Of a stretch of 50,786 bases of DNA, positions 23,799-50,786 are shown piece after piece (the first letter of the stretch is position 1; each line of letters begins with the position of its first letter). The stretch is taken from the IMG/VR virus record IMGVR_UViG_3300028610_001199, positions 1-50,786 of that record; one strand, 5' to 3'. The notes beneath the pieces were generated by a model. It saw nothing but the letters and a program-made list of their open reading frames with translations. It was not told the origin of the DNA and did not search any database. The stretch comes from a virus. Made by a program: the position numbers and the translations under genes.

Positions 23799-23834
23799 AA
23801 TTAATATTCCCCTTGATTCTTATTGCCTATATCT

Positions 23835-23863
23835 CTATTACGAAAATAAAATACAAAAGTCAA
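23835..23863 (-). promoter_or_regulatory. Late operon promoter, sigma70-like
   Basis: On the minus strand, TTGACT at 23863-23858 is followed after 17 bases by TAATAG at 23840-23835. The sequence TTTTACTTGACTT around the -35 element is shared with the plus-strand promoter at 25658. It lies 40 bases upstream of the 305-aa first gene of the late operon and immediately after the terminator of the preceding operon. Confidence 0.65.
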
Positions 23864-23883
23864 GTAAAATCTTTAAAATAACA

Positions 23884-23919
23884 AAAAAAGCCCAGAAATC
23901 GGTGAATTCCCAGGCCTTT
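23884..23919 (-). terminator. Rho-independent terminator of the 24-25 kb operon
   Basis: Read on the minus strand, AAAGGCCTGGGAA pairs with TTTCTGGGCTTT across an 8-base loop (one bulge, three G-U pairs), followed by a T-rich run (TTTTTTTGTTATTTT). It lies between the stop at 24003 and the late promoter at 23863-23835, so it separates two minus-strand operons. Confidence 0.75.
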
Positions 23920-24002
23920 CCCCTTCCTTAAGTTAACGCGACATCAACTTAATTAGGTATATATATCTTCTACAGTTCCCCGGGCATTCTCTTGAACGGG
24001 GA

Positions 24003-24158
24003 TTATCTTCTTTTTAATTTCTGTTTATTTTTCCTTCTATCTCTTCTATTCATTCGCTGCTTAATACGCTTAACTTCTCCTCGCCCCCAACATATGATTC
24101 TTCTCCATTTGGTAATAATATCATATTCTTCACCATTATTACTAGGAACTTTATTCAT
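24003..24158 (-). CDS. Small highly basic protein
   Basis: A 51-aa protein, starting ATG 24158 and overlapping the stop of the upstream gene. Its C-terminal half is extremely basic (RIKQRMNRRDRRKNKQKLKR), and a short Trp-containing stretch (KWRRIICWGRGE) comes before that. RNA or DNA binding is plausible but not shown. It is the last gene before the terminator. Confidence 0.55.
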   Translation of the reverse strand: MNKVPSNNGEEYDIITKWRRIICWGRGEVKRIKQRMNRRDRRKNKQKLKRR

Positions 24159-25267: not shown

Positions 25268-25558
25268 TTATAATAGCAAGGGGTTATTTAATTTTTTTGA
25301 TTGCCTAATAACACTAGCTATTTTAATATTAATAATTTTAACCAGCTTCAGATATTTTCTATTATTCTCTTGAGTGATTCTAATAACTGATTTTCCTTTA
25401 ATCATCACATTAATAACACCTTTTTTAAGAACCCTAACACTACACCCACTTATCTCATCATATAGACAGTCGTTTATTACGTCCCATCCTTTACTATTAA
25501 CTAATTGAATTAGATCAAGATATATTTTATGGGGCCCATACTTTTTTTCCCATCTCAT
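25268..25558 (-). CDS. Hypothetical basic protein
   Basis: The 96-aa product was given the ATG at 25558, which is preceded by TTGGAG six bases away. It begins MRWEKKYGPHKIYLDLIQLV and has beta-strand-like parts and a Lys/Ile-rich C-terminal region. The first gene after the divergent promoter, it could be a regulator or small nuclease-binding protein. I recognise no fold. Confidence 0.55.
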   Translation of the reverse strand: MRWEKKYGPHKIYLDLIQLVNSKGWDVINDCLYDEISGCSVRVLKKGVINVMIKGKSVIRITQENNRKYLKLVKIINIKIASVIRQSKKLNNPLLL

Positions 25559-25599
25559 AATAATCTCCAAAATTGTTACCAATAGACTTAATGGGAAGG

Positions 25600-25628
25600 A
25601 TTATAAGGATACTTCTAAACAAAGTCAA
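25600..25628 (-). promoter_or_regulatory. Leftward sigma70-like promoter
   Basis: On the minus strand, TTGACT at 25628-25623 and a perfect TATAAT at 25605-25600 are separated by 17 bases. It lies about 40 bases ahead of the ATG at 25558 and is the best promoter in the window. It points away from the rightward promoter at 25658. Confidence 0.85.
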
Positions 25629-25657
25629 GAGAAAATAACTCAAATAAATCTTTTTAC

Positions 25658-25686
25658 TTGACTTATATATATATTATTAGTACCTT
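25658..25686 (+). promoter_or_regulatory. Rightward promoter ahead of structured block
   Basis: TTGACT at 25658-25663 is followed after 17 AT-rich bases by TACCTT at 25681-25686, a weak -10. The TTTTACTTGACTT context is nearly identical to that of the late promoter at 23863. The predicted start, at about 25693, coincides with the first base of the first hairpin of the following block. Confidence 0.6.
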
Positions 25687-25692
25687 GCCTAT

Positions 25693-26033
25693 CTATTCGG
25701 TTTATAGAAGCACAGTTTACACCGAAATAGAACTTTAGAATCGTTCTTATAAAAACTGCGCCTGTAATTATTTAGATTCTACAAGGTCAATTAGGATATA
25801 AGGACGAAGAAGAAGCCCAGGCTCTGTGTTAATGCCCACAACTTGGCACCGTAATAAGAGACTAAAAAACTTCTTTGTCCTAGAAGCTTGATAAAAGATT
25901 TGAAGCCCTTACGGGATGGGGTTCTTAAGTTGGCTAGACTTCAGAGTTTATGTGTAAGTATTAAGATAAAGAAAGCATAGAGTCTGATTTAACCTGTAAT
26001 ATTAGTATATTACGGGAAAGGGCATTCTATGCT
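25693..26033 (+). ncRNA. Candidate structured RNA or leader
   Basis: This 340-base stretch without a gene holds several strong pairings. They are a 9-bp stem with one bulge (25693-25701 with 25721-25730); a 7-bp stem (25736-25742 with 25775-25781); a 12-bp stem including one G-U pair (25801-25812 with 25870-25881); and nested 10-bp stems (25974-25983 with 26024-26033, enclosing 25993-26002 with 26007-26016). The plus strand was chosen because a promoter is placed so that transcription would begin on the first stem. It could instead be a 5' leader of the early operon. I do not recognise a known RNA family. Confidence 0.5.
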
Positions 26034-26068
26034 CAAAAATAAAAACTTACCACCCTTTAATATTTACC

Positions 26069-26097
26069 TTGCATCTCTATTCCCACCTTATTATCTT
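26069..26097 (+). promoter_or_regulatory. Early operon promoter, sigma70-like
   Basis: TTGCAT at 26069-26074 is followed after 17 bases by TATCTT at 26092-26097, forty bases upstream of the first early gene. Its upstream sequence TACCTTGC also occurs at 25681. It would allow the coding operon to be expressed separately from the structured block. Confidence 0.5.
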
Positions 26098-26136
26098 CCC
26101 CTATCCAACAATACAATTTCAAACTAGGAGTACTTT

Positions 26137-26505
26137 ATGGCTGAACAAGACTTATTAACCTACTGGAACTCTAGAAAACTAATAACCCATAGAAGACCCC
26201 CTAAGAACGGTAATAAGAAACTAAAGACTTGCCTTAAGGATGCGTTAGAATATTACTCTACAGAAGAGATAAAGAGTAGTATATTCAATTATAGTGTTGT
26301 ATTGAAGTCTAAGTCATCTTATTTTAAATACAAATGGAATGCTGCTGAATTCTTAGATCGTGGCTTAGAGAAGTTTATGGGCAATCCTGATGAAGTCTAT
26401 GGTACTTATACTGATGGGAAAGTAATGATGGAAGTTATAGAAGATAGCACCCACCCAGATTATCAACAATATAGTAAATTCTCAATGATGGGAGAGATTA
26501 ATTAA
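26137..26505 (+). CDS. Replication protein with DnaD-like C-terminal domain
   Basis: The 122-aa protein matches the C-terminal domain of phage replication proteins of the DnaD / phage replication-protein type. It has LLTYWNSRKLITHRRPPKNG, then LKTCLKDALEYYSTEEIKSS, IFNYSVVLKSKSSYFKYKWN and AAEFLDRGLEKFMGNPDEVY. In larger homologues this domain, with a YxxxIxxW-like motif, contacts the helicase loader or DNA. Here it stands alone, without an N-terminal DNA-binding domain. It is the first gene of the rightward early operon, a usual position for a replication initiator. Confidence 0.6.
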   Translation: MAEQDLLTYWNSRKLITHRRPPKNGNKKLKTCLKDALEYYSTEEIKSSIFNYSVVLKSKSSYFKYKWNAAEFLDRGLEKFMGNPDEVYGTYTDGKVMMEVIEDSTHPDYQQYSKFSMMGEIN

Positions 26506-28033: not shown

Positions 28034-28735
28034 ATGGTCAAAAGATTAATTAGATATTTAATTATAGTTTCATTAACAGTTTTGGTAGGTGGGGCAATCT
28101 ATGGGTTCATGAATCCTGTTATGGTGGTGACTTTAAGTTGGGATAGTAACACGGAATCGGATCTTGATGGGTATAAAGTCCATATCGGTACTAAGAGTAG
28201 AGATTATTCTCTTGTTGTTGATATTGGAGATACCACATCATACGAATATACTGTCGCTAATAGTACCTACCCTTACTTCTTCGCAATTACAGCCTACGAT
28301 ACTAGTGGTAATGAAAGTGGGTATTCTATGGAAGTAACTACTGGGATTATTGATAGCGTAGATAATGGGGGTTGCGATACTACATTAATAGTACCTTATA
28401 TGAAAGTTAATAATGGTAGCTGGGAACAAGCTAGTATAGCCCATATGAAGAAAGGCGGTGGGGTTAGTTTTGGTCCCCAACCTATTGACAATAACTGGGA
28501 ATGGGAAGGGCCGGATAACTATGAAAGAACTTCTAGGGAAATAACCTTAGATAATATTCAGAAGAGTAGTAACTATACAGCTATATATACTAATGATTGC
28601 GGGGTTGTAACTACACAATTATTTAGTATTATAATAGACAAAGAACCAATTATTATTAAAGTAACGAAAGCTCCAAAAATTGGGGTTATCACAATAAAGA
28701 AACAACGTAAATGGTGGATACACAGACAATGGTAA
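28034..28735 (+). CDS. Exported FN3-like membrane-anchored protein
   Basis: This 233-aa protein has an N-terminal transmembrane or signal anchor segment (IIVSLTVLVGGAIYGFM near residues 11-27) followed by a fibronectin type III-like domain. That domain has LSWDSNTESDLDGYKVHIGT and then YPYFFAITAYDTSGNESGYS. A second beta domain (about 125-205) with MKVNNGSWEQASIAHMK and YTAIYTNDCGVVTTQLF is immunoglobulin-like. Secreted FN3/Ig-like domains on phages generally bind cell-surface sugars or proteins. It is the first of three exported genes in a row, within the early operon, not the late virion operon. Confidence 0.7.
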   Translation: MVKRLIRYLIIVSLTVLVGGAIYGFMNPVMVVTLSWDSNTESDLDGYKVHIGTKSRDYSLVVDIGDTTSYEYTVANSTYPYFFAITAYDTSGNESGYSMEVTTGIIDSVDNGGCDTTLIVPYMKVNNGSWEQASIAHMKKGGGVSFGPQPIDNNWEWEGPDNYERTSREITLDNIQKSSNYTAIYTNDCGVVTTQLFSIIIDKEPIIIKVTKAPKIGVITIKKQRKWWIHRQW

Positions 28736-29271
28736 GAAATATATTAACTTTATTAGTTTTATCAACTGGGGTGGTTTTTGGGCAAGATACAACTAAGGTA
28801 GTTATTTTTAAGACTAGTGCAAATGTTGAGATGAATTATACTCCTTCAGTATTTAAAATAGGTAGTGCTAGTGCAGACGGTAGTGCGTTACAAGTATCTG
28901 GTGGGGCGGGTAGGTTCTCTGGTGGGGGGCCTGGAATTACTAGCGGTAAAGGATTAGAACTTACATACGATTGGAAAGGTGGGTGGATTAATTCTGTTGA
29001 TAGAAATAGTGGGTTTATGTTAATGCCTTTATTTGTTAGCGCAAGTAAGTTCGCCATTAACGGTAATCAGATCGGGATTGGCCTCTCATCAGACTCTTCA
29101 ATAACTGCCAATTTAGATATTAAGGGCATTAATATTAGACTTAGATTGCCATCTACTCCTTTATCATCTGCTGCTAATGGGAATCAAGGTGAGATGAAGT
29201 GGGATACGAACTATTTTTATATTTGTGTTAGTGCCAATAATTGGAAAAGAATCCCTTTACAAAGTTTCTAG
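28729..29271 (+). CDS. Exported fibre-like protein
   Basis: The start at ATG 28729 gives a good signal peptide (MVRNILTLLVLSTGVVFG, then QDTT). An earlier in-frame ATG at 28711 has no such clear start. The 180-aa product contains GWINSVDRNSGFMLMPLFV, matching 11 of 19 positions with GFIDVVDRTSGFLAQKLFV of the late gene at 14759-15235. It ends in WDTNYFYICVSANNWKR, a motif common at the ends of phage tail fibres. A virion-like protein exported early in infection is unusual. Confidence 0.65.
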   Translation: MVRNILTLLVLSTGVVFGQDTTKVVIFKTSANVEMNYTPSVFKIGSASADGSALQVSGGAGRFSGGGPGITSGKGLELTYDWKGGWINSVDRNSGFMLMPLFVSASKFAINGNQIGIGLSSDSSITANLDIKGINIRLRLPSTPLSSAANGNQGEMKWDTNYFYICVSANNWKRIPLQSF

Positions 29272-29280
29272 GTTAATACT

Positions 29281-29808
29281 ATGGTAAAATCAATAATTGC
29301 AGCTATATTTATATGGGCTAGTATAGGTTCTGGATGGTGCCAAGATACACTCCACGTTGCCCATGGAGATACTTTAAGACTATTAATAACCCCACCAACT
29401 AACTACAAGGATAATACGCCAATAGGCCAAGGTGTTATAGACTCTTTAAGATATAAATTCCTCCTATCTAAAGTAGGCGGTTTCTCTTGGGACGATATGG
29501 TTGACGGGAGATATAGATCTTATCTAGCAAAAAAAGAAAATAATAGTGTTGTTATTAATATAATTATTAATATATTGGGTAAGGATAGGATAGGAGTTAA
29601 GACTCAAGATACTATCAAGAGTAATCCTATTAAAGAAGGGTTGTACAAATTTACTGCTAGTGCGGCGGTTAACGATACTAGTGGGATTAGTGGTGGGGGT
29701 GGGATTAGATTGATATCTTTCCTGCCTGATGACCCAGACTTACCTTGGGAACCTTATCTGCCAAAAGGCAAGTCAAAAGTAGTCAATATAACAATTAACT
29801 TTTACTAA
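29281..29808 (+). CDS. Exported beta-rich protein
   Basis: The 175-aa protein starts with a signal peptide (SIIAAIFIWASIGSGWC then QDTLH). Beta-rich sequence with VVNITINFY at its end and DRIGVKTQDTIKSNPIKEG in the middle suggests a beta-sandwich. Its N-terminus after cleavage, QDT, resembles that of the previous gene (QDTT). The partners at 28034-29271 suggest they form or modify one surface structure. No enzymatic motif is visible. Confidence 0.6.
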   Translation: MVKSIIAAIFIWASIGSGWCQDTLHVAHGDTLRLLITPPTNYKDNTPIGQGVIDSLRYKFLLSKVGGFSWDDMVDGRYRSYLAKKENNSVVINIIINILGKDRIGVKTQDTIKSNPIKEGLYKFTASAAVNDTSGISGGGGIRLISFLPDDPDLPWEPYLPKGKSKVVNITINFY

Positions 29809-33741: not shown

Positions 33742-34194
33742 ATGGGTACAAAATTCAAAGTCGGTGACAAGGTCATGGTAACAGATCCTATGTATGCAGA
33801 AGATATTATATATTGTAATAAAGTTTTTACTGTTAATAATGTAGATGATGCTGGAGATTGTTATGTAGATGAGAATGATGATATATGGATTGAGAGTGAA
33901 TTGACTAAAGTAGAAGAGAAGAAACCTATGGAAGAAAACTATGCTATATTACTAGCAGGTGTGTTGGTTAGAGAAAGTAATTTAAAGAAGGAATTAGAAG
34001 AATTAAAAGAAGAATTAAGGAGATCAGACCAAAGTAACACGGATCTTAGAAAACACCTAGAAAGTGAAGACTGTAAAAAGTGTAAGGAATTGGAAGTAGT
34101 GGTTGATGCTTATAAGAGAAAAGTAATTCGATTAGATAGTGAAAAAAATATGTGGTTTAGGGAATATCAAGATTTAAAGGAGACCTTTAGATGA
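33742..34194 (+). CDS. KOW/SH3-like and coiled-coil protein
   Basis: The 150-aa product starts with a small beta domain (TKFKVGDKVMVTD and CYVDENDDIWIESELTKV) that looks like an SH3 or KOW fold. It continues as a coiled coil (ESNLKKELEELKEELRRSD), with CKKCK in the middle. It is the first gene after the promoter at 33683. It may bind nucleic acid or proteins; no named family. Confidence 0.55.
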   Translation: MGTKFKVGDKVMVTDPMYAEDIIYCNKVFTVNNVDDAGDCYVDENDDIWIESELTKVEEKKPMEENYAILLAGVLVRESNLKKELEELKEELRRSDQSNTDLRKHLESEDCKKCKELEVVVDAYKRKVIRLDSEKNMWFREYQDLKETFR

Positions 34195-34484
34195 AGGTAA
34201 TTAATAAGAAAATTATAGTAGAGAACTTTGTAGTAGCAAGAGAAGCTACGGAGAATGGGATTATAACGCTAGGTGTAGTAGATCTTGGATATGGCATAGG
34301 CGTTATCTATGCGGGTGATGAGAAGGCAATGGAAGGAAATGGTTTGGCTGTAGGGGATATGGTATACTATCCTATAGGCGGCGGTATTGAAGAATTTGAC
34401 TATGATGGTAAGGATTTAACTGTTCTCCATGTGAATGCTATTATGGGGAAGAAGGAAGGGGTAGATGAATATGGAAAAGATTGA
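34191..34484 (+). CDS. Hypothetical protein
   Basis: A 97-aa beta-rich protein (GIITLGVVDLGYGIGVIYAGD) overlapping the previous gene by 4 bases. No recognisable domain. Confidence 0.45.
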   Translation: MKVINKKIIVENFVVAREATENGIITLGVVDLGYGIGVIYAGDEKAMEGNGLAVGDMVYYPIGGGIEEFDYDGKDLTVLHVNAIMGKKEGVDEYGKD

Positions 34485-40085: not shown

Positions 40086-40914
40086 TATCTTTCTCCTTTA
40101 ATATTAATTAGTTAATCACCTTCTTATATACTAGTACAACTAGTTTTAGTATAGGGAATATATCTGTTAATTACTACTAAAAAATAGTAAATTCTAGTAT
40201 TGGATTTTAGAGTATTATATATTTAGAGTAGTCTAGTAAAATTGTAATATTTTGTACTATTGTTTTTTATTATAGTATATATTTAGAGAGGCTATACTAT
40301 ATCCCCTGCAGTTCCCTACCCCTATCCTATATCACTCCCATACCCCTTTAAGGTACACCCGGGGGTTAATCCTAATTGTATCTATTACCTATTATAATGG
40401 GTTCTTACTTCGTATTCTTCCCATATTGATAGTACTATACTAGAGCCTAGAGTATAGGTGTGTTCTGCTTACAGCTTCTTCACAACTCCTTCGACACAAT
40501 GCTTTGGTCTCTCTCAAACAAGTGGGTTCTGGCTGTCGCCTTCTCTCCAAGCTATATAGTTACTCGGAATTAGTAATGGTTAGTTCGTTCATAGTGCAGA
40601 ATAGTTAATACTATCCTTTCTATTTACCTGTATTAGTAGTAATACTCTATCTTATTTATTAAAAGTTCGCCCAAAATGCGGGCTAGATAACCTCCTCCCC
40701 TAGGGTAGAGAAATTAAAAATAAAGAGAAACTATCCCCTCCTCCTATATAGAGAGTAAAAGACTATAAGCTACTGTTAATACTAGTAGTTAGCTACTTAT
40801 TATAACTAGTAATTTAAATAGTCCTTGTAGAAGGGGATTTATTTACTAAATTGCATTATGCCTGATTACCACTAGGGTTACTAGTCACATTATTAATTAA
40901 AAAGGAGAGAGTTT
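40086..40914. other. 829-bp gene-free control region
   Basis: This stretch divides the leftward operon (first ATG at 40085) from the rightward operon (40915), so it must hold divergent promoters. A good minus-strand TATAAT is at 40219-40214 without a clear -35, and a weak rightward pair is TTGTAG (40824-40829) and TAAATT (40847-40852). A 13-base direct repeat TATATATTTAGAG occurs at 40216-40228 and 40276-40288. The latter adjoins an inverted repeat TATAGTATA/TATACTATA at 40271-40301. A palindrome-like block, CTATACTAG then CTAGAGTATAG, is at 40435-40457. I see no gene in it. The AT-rich repeat region could include a replication origin, but that is not shown. Confidence 0.6.
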
Positions 40915-42786: not shown

Positions 42787-43077
42787 ATGCAATTAGGTGG
42801 AGTAATAAAGCACTACAGGAAAAGAGAGAAGATGAGACAGTATGAACTTGCTGAGCTCTTAGAAGTGACTCAAAGCTATTTATCACAAATAGAAAACAAT
42901 AAGAGATATCCAAGCATTGACTTACTAAAAGAATTGGCTGACGCATTCGGCCTTCTAGTGTCTCACATGATATTTATAGCTGAACACAACTTAGAAGAGC
43001 ACGAGATTAGCACTGTTGATAACCATTATCTAGAAATAACTCAACAAATCTTTAGAGACGCTAACAAGGAGCTTTAA
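42787..43077 (+). CDS. XRE/Cro-type transcription regulator
   Basis: The 96-aa protein has a canonical helix-turn-helix of the XRE type: LGGVIKHYRKREKMRQYELA, then ELLEVTQSYLSQIENNKRYP and SIDLLKELADAFGL. A C-terminal dimerising-type extension follows. It probably represses or activates genes in this region. Its gene lies among short genes whose gaps carry the repeated CCGATA motif, which could be an operator, but the link is inferred. Confidence 0.8.
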   Translation: MQLGGVIKHYRKREKMRQYELAELLEVTQSYLSQIENNKRYPSIDLLKELADAFGLLVSHMIFIAEHNLEEHEISTVDNHYLEITQQIFRDANKEL

Positions 43078-50453: not shown

Positions 50454-50687
50454 ATGAGCTTAGAGATTACGTATTACAGCTGTGAATTAGAAAAAACTGA
50501 AGTATGTAAAAGCAAAATGACCGGACAAACCTATACTACTTTAACATTAAATAAGAACTTTGAATTTGAATATACAGAATCTATCTACATTATAGAATCA
50601 ATCCTTAAGTCCCATGGGGTTGATATATTTACCGACGAGCAATTAGATAAAATTAAAGAACATATTAATTTAAAGGAGAAAGAATAA
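50454..50687 (+). CDS. Hypothetical small protein at circular join
   Basis: A 77-aa product with a Lys/Glu-rich helical C-terminus (DKIKEHINLKEKE) and a beta-rich start (LEITYYSCELEKTEVCKSKM). Its last 45 bases are repeated at 1-45. It lies between the lipoprotein and the 143-aa protein. No family recognised. Confidence 0.5.
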   Translation: MSLEITYYSCELEKTEVCKSKMTGQTYTTLTLNKNFEFEYTESIYIIESILKSHGVDIFTDEQLDKIKEHINLKEKE

Positions 50688-50786
50688 TATGAGAAAATGG
50701 ATTAGAAATTGGTTATTAAAAGACGAAGAAGACTATATAAACTTAAAAGAAAAATTAAAGGATCATAAAGAATATGCAGAACAAGA
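50643..50786. repeat. Terminal direct repeat, right copy
   Basis: Identical to 1-144. It includes the end of the 77-aa gene and, from the ATG at 50689, the first 98 bases of the 143-aa gene that is complete at 47-478. Confidence 0.97.

Follow-up and report, generated by a model that had tools for sequence, protein, structure and literature searches.

A candidate structured leader RNA and a rut-like segment in the divergent control region of an orphan phage

The locus and its genome

What is carried by a long gene-free stretch between two phage operons that point away from each other: a regulatory RNA, an untranslated leader, a site in the DNA, or a spacer that folds well by chance? The question is raised by a phage genome, referred to here as the window (the whole stretch of DNA analysed, 50,786 nucleotides, 36% G+C), in which a divergent gap of 575 bases separates the last leftward start codon (ATG at 25561) from the first gene of the rightward operon (Table 1). 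A preliminary description had singled out a block in this gap as gene-free and rich in stems, and had read it as either a regulatory RNA or a long leader. No open reading frame longer than 32 aa was found wholly within 25644-26136, in agreement with the absence of genes. The phage genome is complete (about 50.6 kb), since its first 144 bases recur at the end as a direct terminal repeat (1-144 = 50643-50786).

Several other features were recorded along the genome. The listed TTG start of the minus-strand ORF 25268-25582 is probably wrong, and the ATG at 25561 is preceded by a good ribosome site (GGAG). No hairpin in the genome is stronger than the one at 2200-2245 (17 pairs), which lies between convergent operons and is probably a two-way terminator, and a 350-base gap within the leftward block (23799-24150) contains a minus-strand hairpin of 18 pairs, many of them G-U, at 23883-23922. 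Three consecutive secreted-looking proteins with N-terminal hydrophobic segments are encoded in the rightward operon at 28034-29808, one of them with a tail-protein-like domain at its end. A second long non-coding divergent gap of 830 bases, with low G+C and no RNA-like structure, is found at 40086-40914; it may be an origin or the main region of early control, and an HTH repressor-like gene follows further downstream (42787-43077).

Table 1. Features in and around the divergent gap, in window coordinates
Feature	Position	Strand	Description
Leftward gene block	25561-2251	-	terminase (phrog_38), portal (phrog_156), tail spike, virion proteins
Leftward sigma-70-like promoter	25600-25628	-	TTGACT-17-TATAAT, 11/12 consensus, best in region
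Candidate rightward promoter	25658-25686	+	TTGACT-17-TACCTT, 8/12 consensus, poor -10 box; start predicted near 25693
Structured RNA block	25693-26045	+	z = -3.79; 0/100 shuffles as stable
5' hairpin	25693-25730	+	CTATT-CGGT/ACCG-A-AATAG, 9 pairs, one bulge; other pairings compete
Second hairpin	25736-25781	+	7 pairs, 25736-25742/25775-25781, TAGAATC/GATTCTA; context dependent
Long hairpin	25790-25892	+	6-pair base, 12-pair stem, apical helices
Alternative hairpin	25941-25987	+	TCAGAGTTTATGT/GCATAGAGTCTGA; excludes outer stem of 25974-26033
Nested hairpin	25974-26033	+	outer 10 pairs 25974-25983/26024-26033; inner 10 pairs; z = -5.0
32-aa ORF	26029-26127	+	spans C-rich segment; probably not coding
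C-rich, G-poor, rut-like segment	26045-26123	+	26 C, 1 G of 79
Second copy of TACCTTGCNTNTCTATTC	26065-26082	+	first at 25681-25698; 16/18 match
First gene of rightward operon	26137-26505	+	SD AGGAG; no known family

Transcription signals

The leftward promoter (25628-25600) and the candidate rightward promoter (25658-25686) stand back to back, and promoter-like sites in the region are barely above chance (11 against 6.8, sd 3.0). The rightward site, from which transcription had been supposed to start at the first stem, proved weak and fell under the cut of the consensus scan. A second promoter had been placed near 26069 for the coding genes; this was not borne out, as the consensus scan returned none there and no -35 box is present, just the repeat of TACCTTGCNTNTCTATTC, which is itself marginal (16 of 300 shuffles equally good, p about 0.05). 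On the plus strand, a scan between the block and the gene at 26137 found no intrinsic terminator, the sequence after the last hairpin (26033) being CAAAAATAAAAAC, A-rich and not U-rich. Terminator-like sites downstream occur at chance level (7 against 7.4).

Folding of the block

All the stems named in the preliminary description were found on the sequence at their coordinates, and the block is statistically real as a strand-specific clustering of stems beyond chance. Across the genome, single stems of this size are no more frequent than expected (10 observed with a score of at least 24 against 14-19 in shuffles, and 3 against 1-4 at a score of at least 28). The RNA 25687-26045 folds with z = -3.67 and the complementary strand of the block with z = -1.31, and the long stems include G-U pairs, which can form only in plus-strand RNA. 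In a fold scan of the genome with 160-nt windows on both strands, summed in triples to give 1258 stretches, the plus-strand triple 25601-26080 ranked first with a summed z of -8.32 (mean 0.05, sd 2.0; next -6.98), which places it about 4 sd from the scan mean; no other 480-nt stretch of the genome is as strongly structured. The same scan showed no comparable structure in the other long divergent gap at 40.1-40.9 kb. Addition of 26046-26136 to the block weakens z to -1.72, and the folded part is thus clearly set off from the unfolded one. Other structured spots, at 33.6 and 49.2 kb, were set aside, as they lie in or beside small ORFs and show no similarity to the block; at a gene border, 34161-34320, the fold z-scores are low on either strand (-4.9 and -3.9).

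The elements of the block differ in firmness. The 12-pair stem 25801-25812/25870-25881 (AGGACGAAGAAG/CTTCTTTGTCCT, one G-U) is predicted with p 0.95-0.99 in every fold context, and 25801-25881 has z = -4.7; equally robust in every fold is the inner hairpin 25993-26002/26007-26016, with 10 pairs, the loop TAGT and p 0.99. These two are the firm elements, and the outer stem of the last hairpin meets competing pairings. The first two stems (25693-25781) are not robust, with p ranging from 0.01 to 0.91 according to the ends chosen. At the 3' side, 25975-25983 can pair either with 25941-25953 or with 26024-26032, the winner in folding being set by the 3' end of the RNA; in isolation the alternative hairpin 25941-25987 reaches -30.0 kcal/mol and the nested hairpin 25974-26033 reaches -26.0 kcal/mol. 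These modeled competing pairings may represent a switch, or mere ambiguity of single-sequence folding.

The C-rich segment before the operon

Just past 26045, where the folded block ends, the composition shifts abruptly. Ranked by C minus G among the 78-nt windows of both strands, the segment falls in the top 0.13%; the remaining extreme windows are antisense to genes, and 26044-26121 is the most C-rich, G-poor segment of the transcribed strand. It is known that rut sites consist of unstructured, C-rich and G-poor RNA (PMC4496710), and that Rho-dependent terminators are marked by C>G bubbles (PMC9426467). The RNA of 26045-26123 is unstructured, C-rich, G-poor and untranslated, as is the rut site of a Rho-dependent attenuator. 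Judged by its make-up, it is possibly a Rho loading site; alternatively, the segment might be a ribosome binding aid or plain pyrimidine bias. The 32-aa uORF starts inside the last hairpin and its stop overlaps the SD; it was rejected as coding on a codon-usage score of -0.92 per codon, like that of out-of-frame sequence. An anti-rut pairing between the G-rich leader portion 25896-25940 and the C-rich segment was also tried and found at chance level (32 of 500 and 89 of 500 shuffles equally good).

Search for homologs

By its sequence the phage is an orphan lineage, with a terminase and a portal for which these searches found practically no relatives in phage records, IMG/VR and GTDB, collections that may lack very close records. 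The terminase gave zero tblastn matches in 50,697 phage records, the portal gave only 20-23% identical stretches in tblastn against phage records, and the IMG/VR and GTDB scans gave no relative with more than one distant gene in common, HNH endonucleases aside. Relatives were sought with the first rightward gene, the terminase, the portal, the dATP/dGTP hydrolase gene, the metallophosphoesterase, the Erf-like protein and the 1103-aa virion protein; with the same exception, these queries returned only phages sharing a single distant gene, none with a related leader. The block itself, searched as DNA in phages and plasmids, gave either nothing or a single chance match of 35 bases. None of the search routes (DNA, gene-guided, pattern or covariance model) led to a homologous RNA; for the two firm hairpins, covariance models built from the single sequence were run against the window and 1.4 Mb of loci without turning up a second copy. 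A scan with the pattern of the repeated 18-mer returned four viral contigs with extended similarity; as these read as apparent coding sequence, one of them hsdS-like, the matches were regarded as chance. The preliminary description had matched the block to no known RNA family, and this held in an Rfam 15 covariance-model search, with nothing at the gathering threshold and no match at E <= 10 on 25580-26140.

A leader RNA and its alternatives

As in a structured 5' leader, the block is non-coding, is folded beyond chance and runs unbroken to a gene with a ribosome site. We infer that it serves as a structured 5' leader of about 444 nt for the rightward operon at 26137, with cis-acting control of operon entry, possibly through Rho, as the most likely mechanism, and we give this reading about an even chance. 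Transcription would start near 25693, and the RNA would fold into a series of hairpins in which 25790-25892 and 25974-26033 are predicted to be firm. The RNA would then enter the unstructured, almost G-free C-rich segment of 79 nt ahead of the first gene, and this untranslated segment would let Rho halt transcription before that gene. The folded part would set the frequency of read-through, be it through binding of a phage or host factor, through RNase III cleavage or through an effect on RNA polymerase. A bolder version is improbable: a folded domain of about 350 nt would alternate between the hairpins 25941-25987 and 25974-26033 and gate Rho-dependent termination at the neighbouring, almost G-free segment before the divergent operon, and the RNA would represent a new class of phage leader.

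Of the two roles first suggested, the leader is favoured over the free RNA, given that the block is not followed by an intrinsic terminator and that a consensus scan lends no support to the second promoter. A free-standing, trans-acting regulatory RNA of about 340 nt, ending or processed near the hairpin at 26033 with the operon promoter near 26069, would explain why the 3' border of the structure is sharp (26033-26045) and why TACCTTGCNTNTCTATTC is repeated at both presumed starts; however, the last hairpin is followed by A-rich sequence instead of U and no terminator is predicted, and the second copy of the repeat, which is only marginally beyond chance, has no -35 box, so that this reading is unlikely. 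Antitermination of the HK022 put type, in which the hairpins at 25693-25781 would bind RNA polymerase and make it ignore downstream terminators, is suggested by the way a divergent operon opens with two adjoining stem-loops. Yet these two have the lowest stability among the hairpins, the terminator-like sites to be ignored are at chance level, and the 24-31 kb stretch of HK022, within which putL and putR were not pinpointed, shows no sequence similarity; we hold this very improbable.

A site acting in the DNA, either a replication origin or a regulator-binding region whose inverted repeats merely resemble RNA stems, would suit a divergent region that is AT-rich at 25641-25680 and contains the minimum of the cumulative GC skew. 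That skew turns around where genes run leftward, at 37-41 kb, and therefore follows transcription, no exact DnaA box and no iterons occur in the region, although a phage-specific initiator is still possible, and the fold excess is strand specific; there is little to be said for such a site in terms of probability. The same low probability is assigned to chance, in the form of an AT-rich spacer with fortuitously good folding: stems of this size, taken singly, are about as common in shuffled genomes and no conservation is demonstrable, but chance has to account for a 480-nt stretch ranking first of 1258, about 4 sd from the mean, on one strand.

To our knowledge, phage leader RNAs controlling operon entry have been described from few phages. 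If the leader reading is true, a strand-specific, strongly folded leader adjoining a rut-like segment in an orphan lineage would widen the known set; its value now is that of a well-bounded candidate, one sequence without homologs, rather than an established class.

Comparison with known systems

Phage leader RNAs can contain large hairpins, an example being the lambda N leader, which carries an RNase III site. Like the lambda N leader, the block would be a long structured leader that precedes the opening gene of an operon within a divergent control region; it differs in that it has no nut site, no boxB was found and no N-like gene was seen. A lambda-type nut site found no support, the boxA-like CGTTCTTA at 25742 being at chance level (34 against 29.7) with no GNRA-like boxB after it by eye. 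GOLLD and ROOL, large phage non-coding RNAs, are likewise structured, non-coding and phage-borne, whereas the block has no Rfam match at all and the genome has no tRNA genes.

The putL site of HK022 is about 70 nt long and forms two stem-loops just downstream of PL (PMC9378689). With hairpins right after the operon promoter, putL and putR come closest in anatomy to the first two hairpins, but the block is about 350 nt long instead of 70 and does not resemble the 24-31 kb region of HK022. From Rho-dependent leader attenuators, with their C>G bubble and rut site, the block differs in having no convincing coding uORF and in that an involvement of Rho is read from the sequence; what the two have in common is that the untranslated leader contains an unstructured segment rich in C and poor in G.
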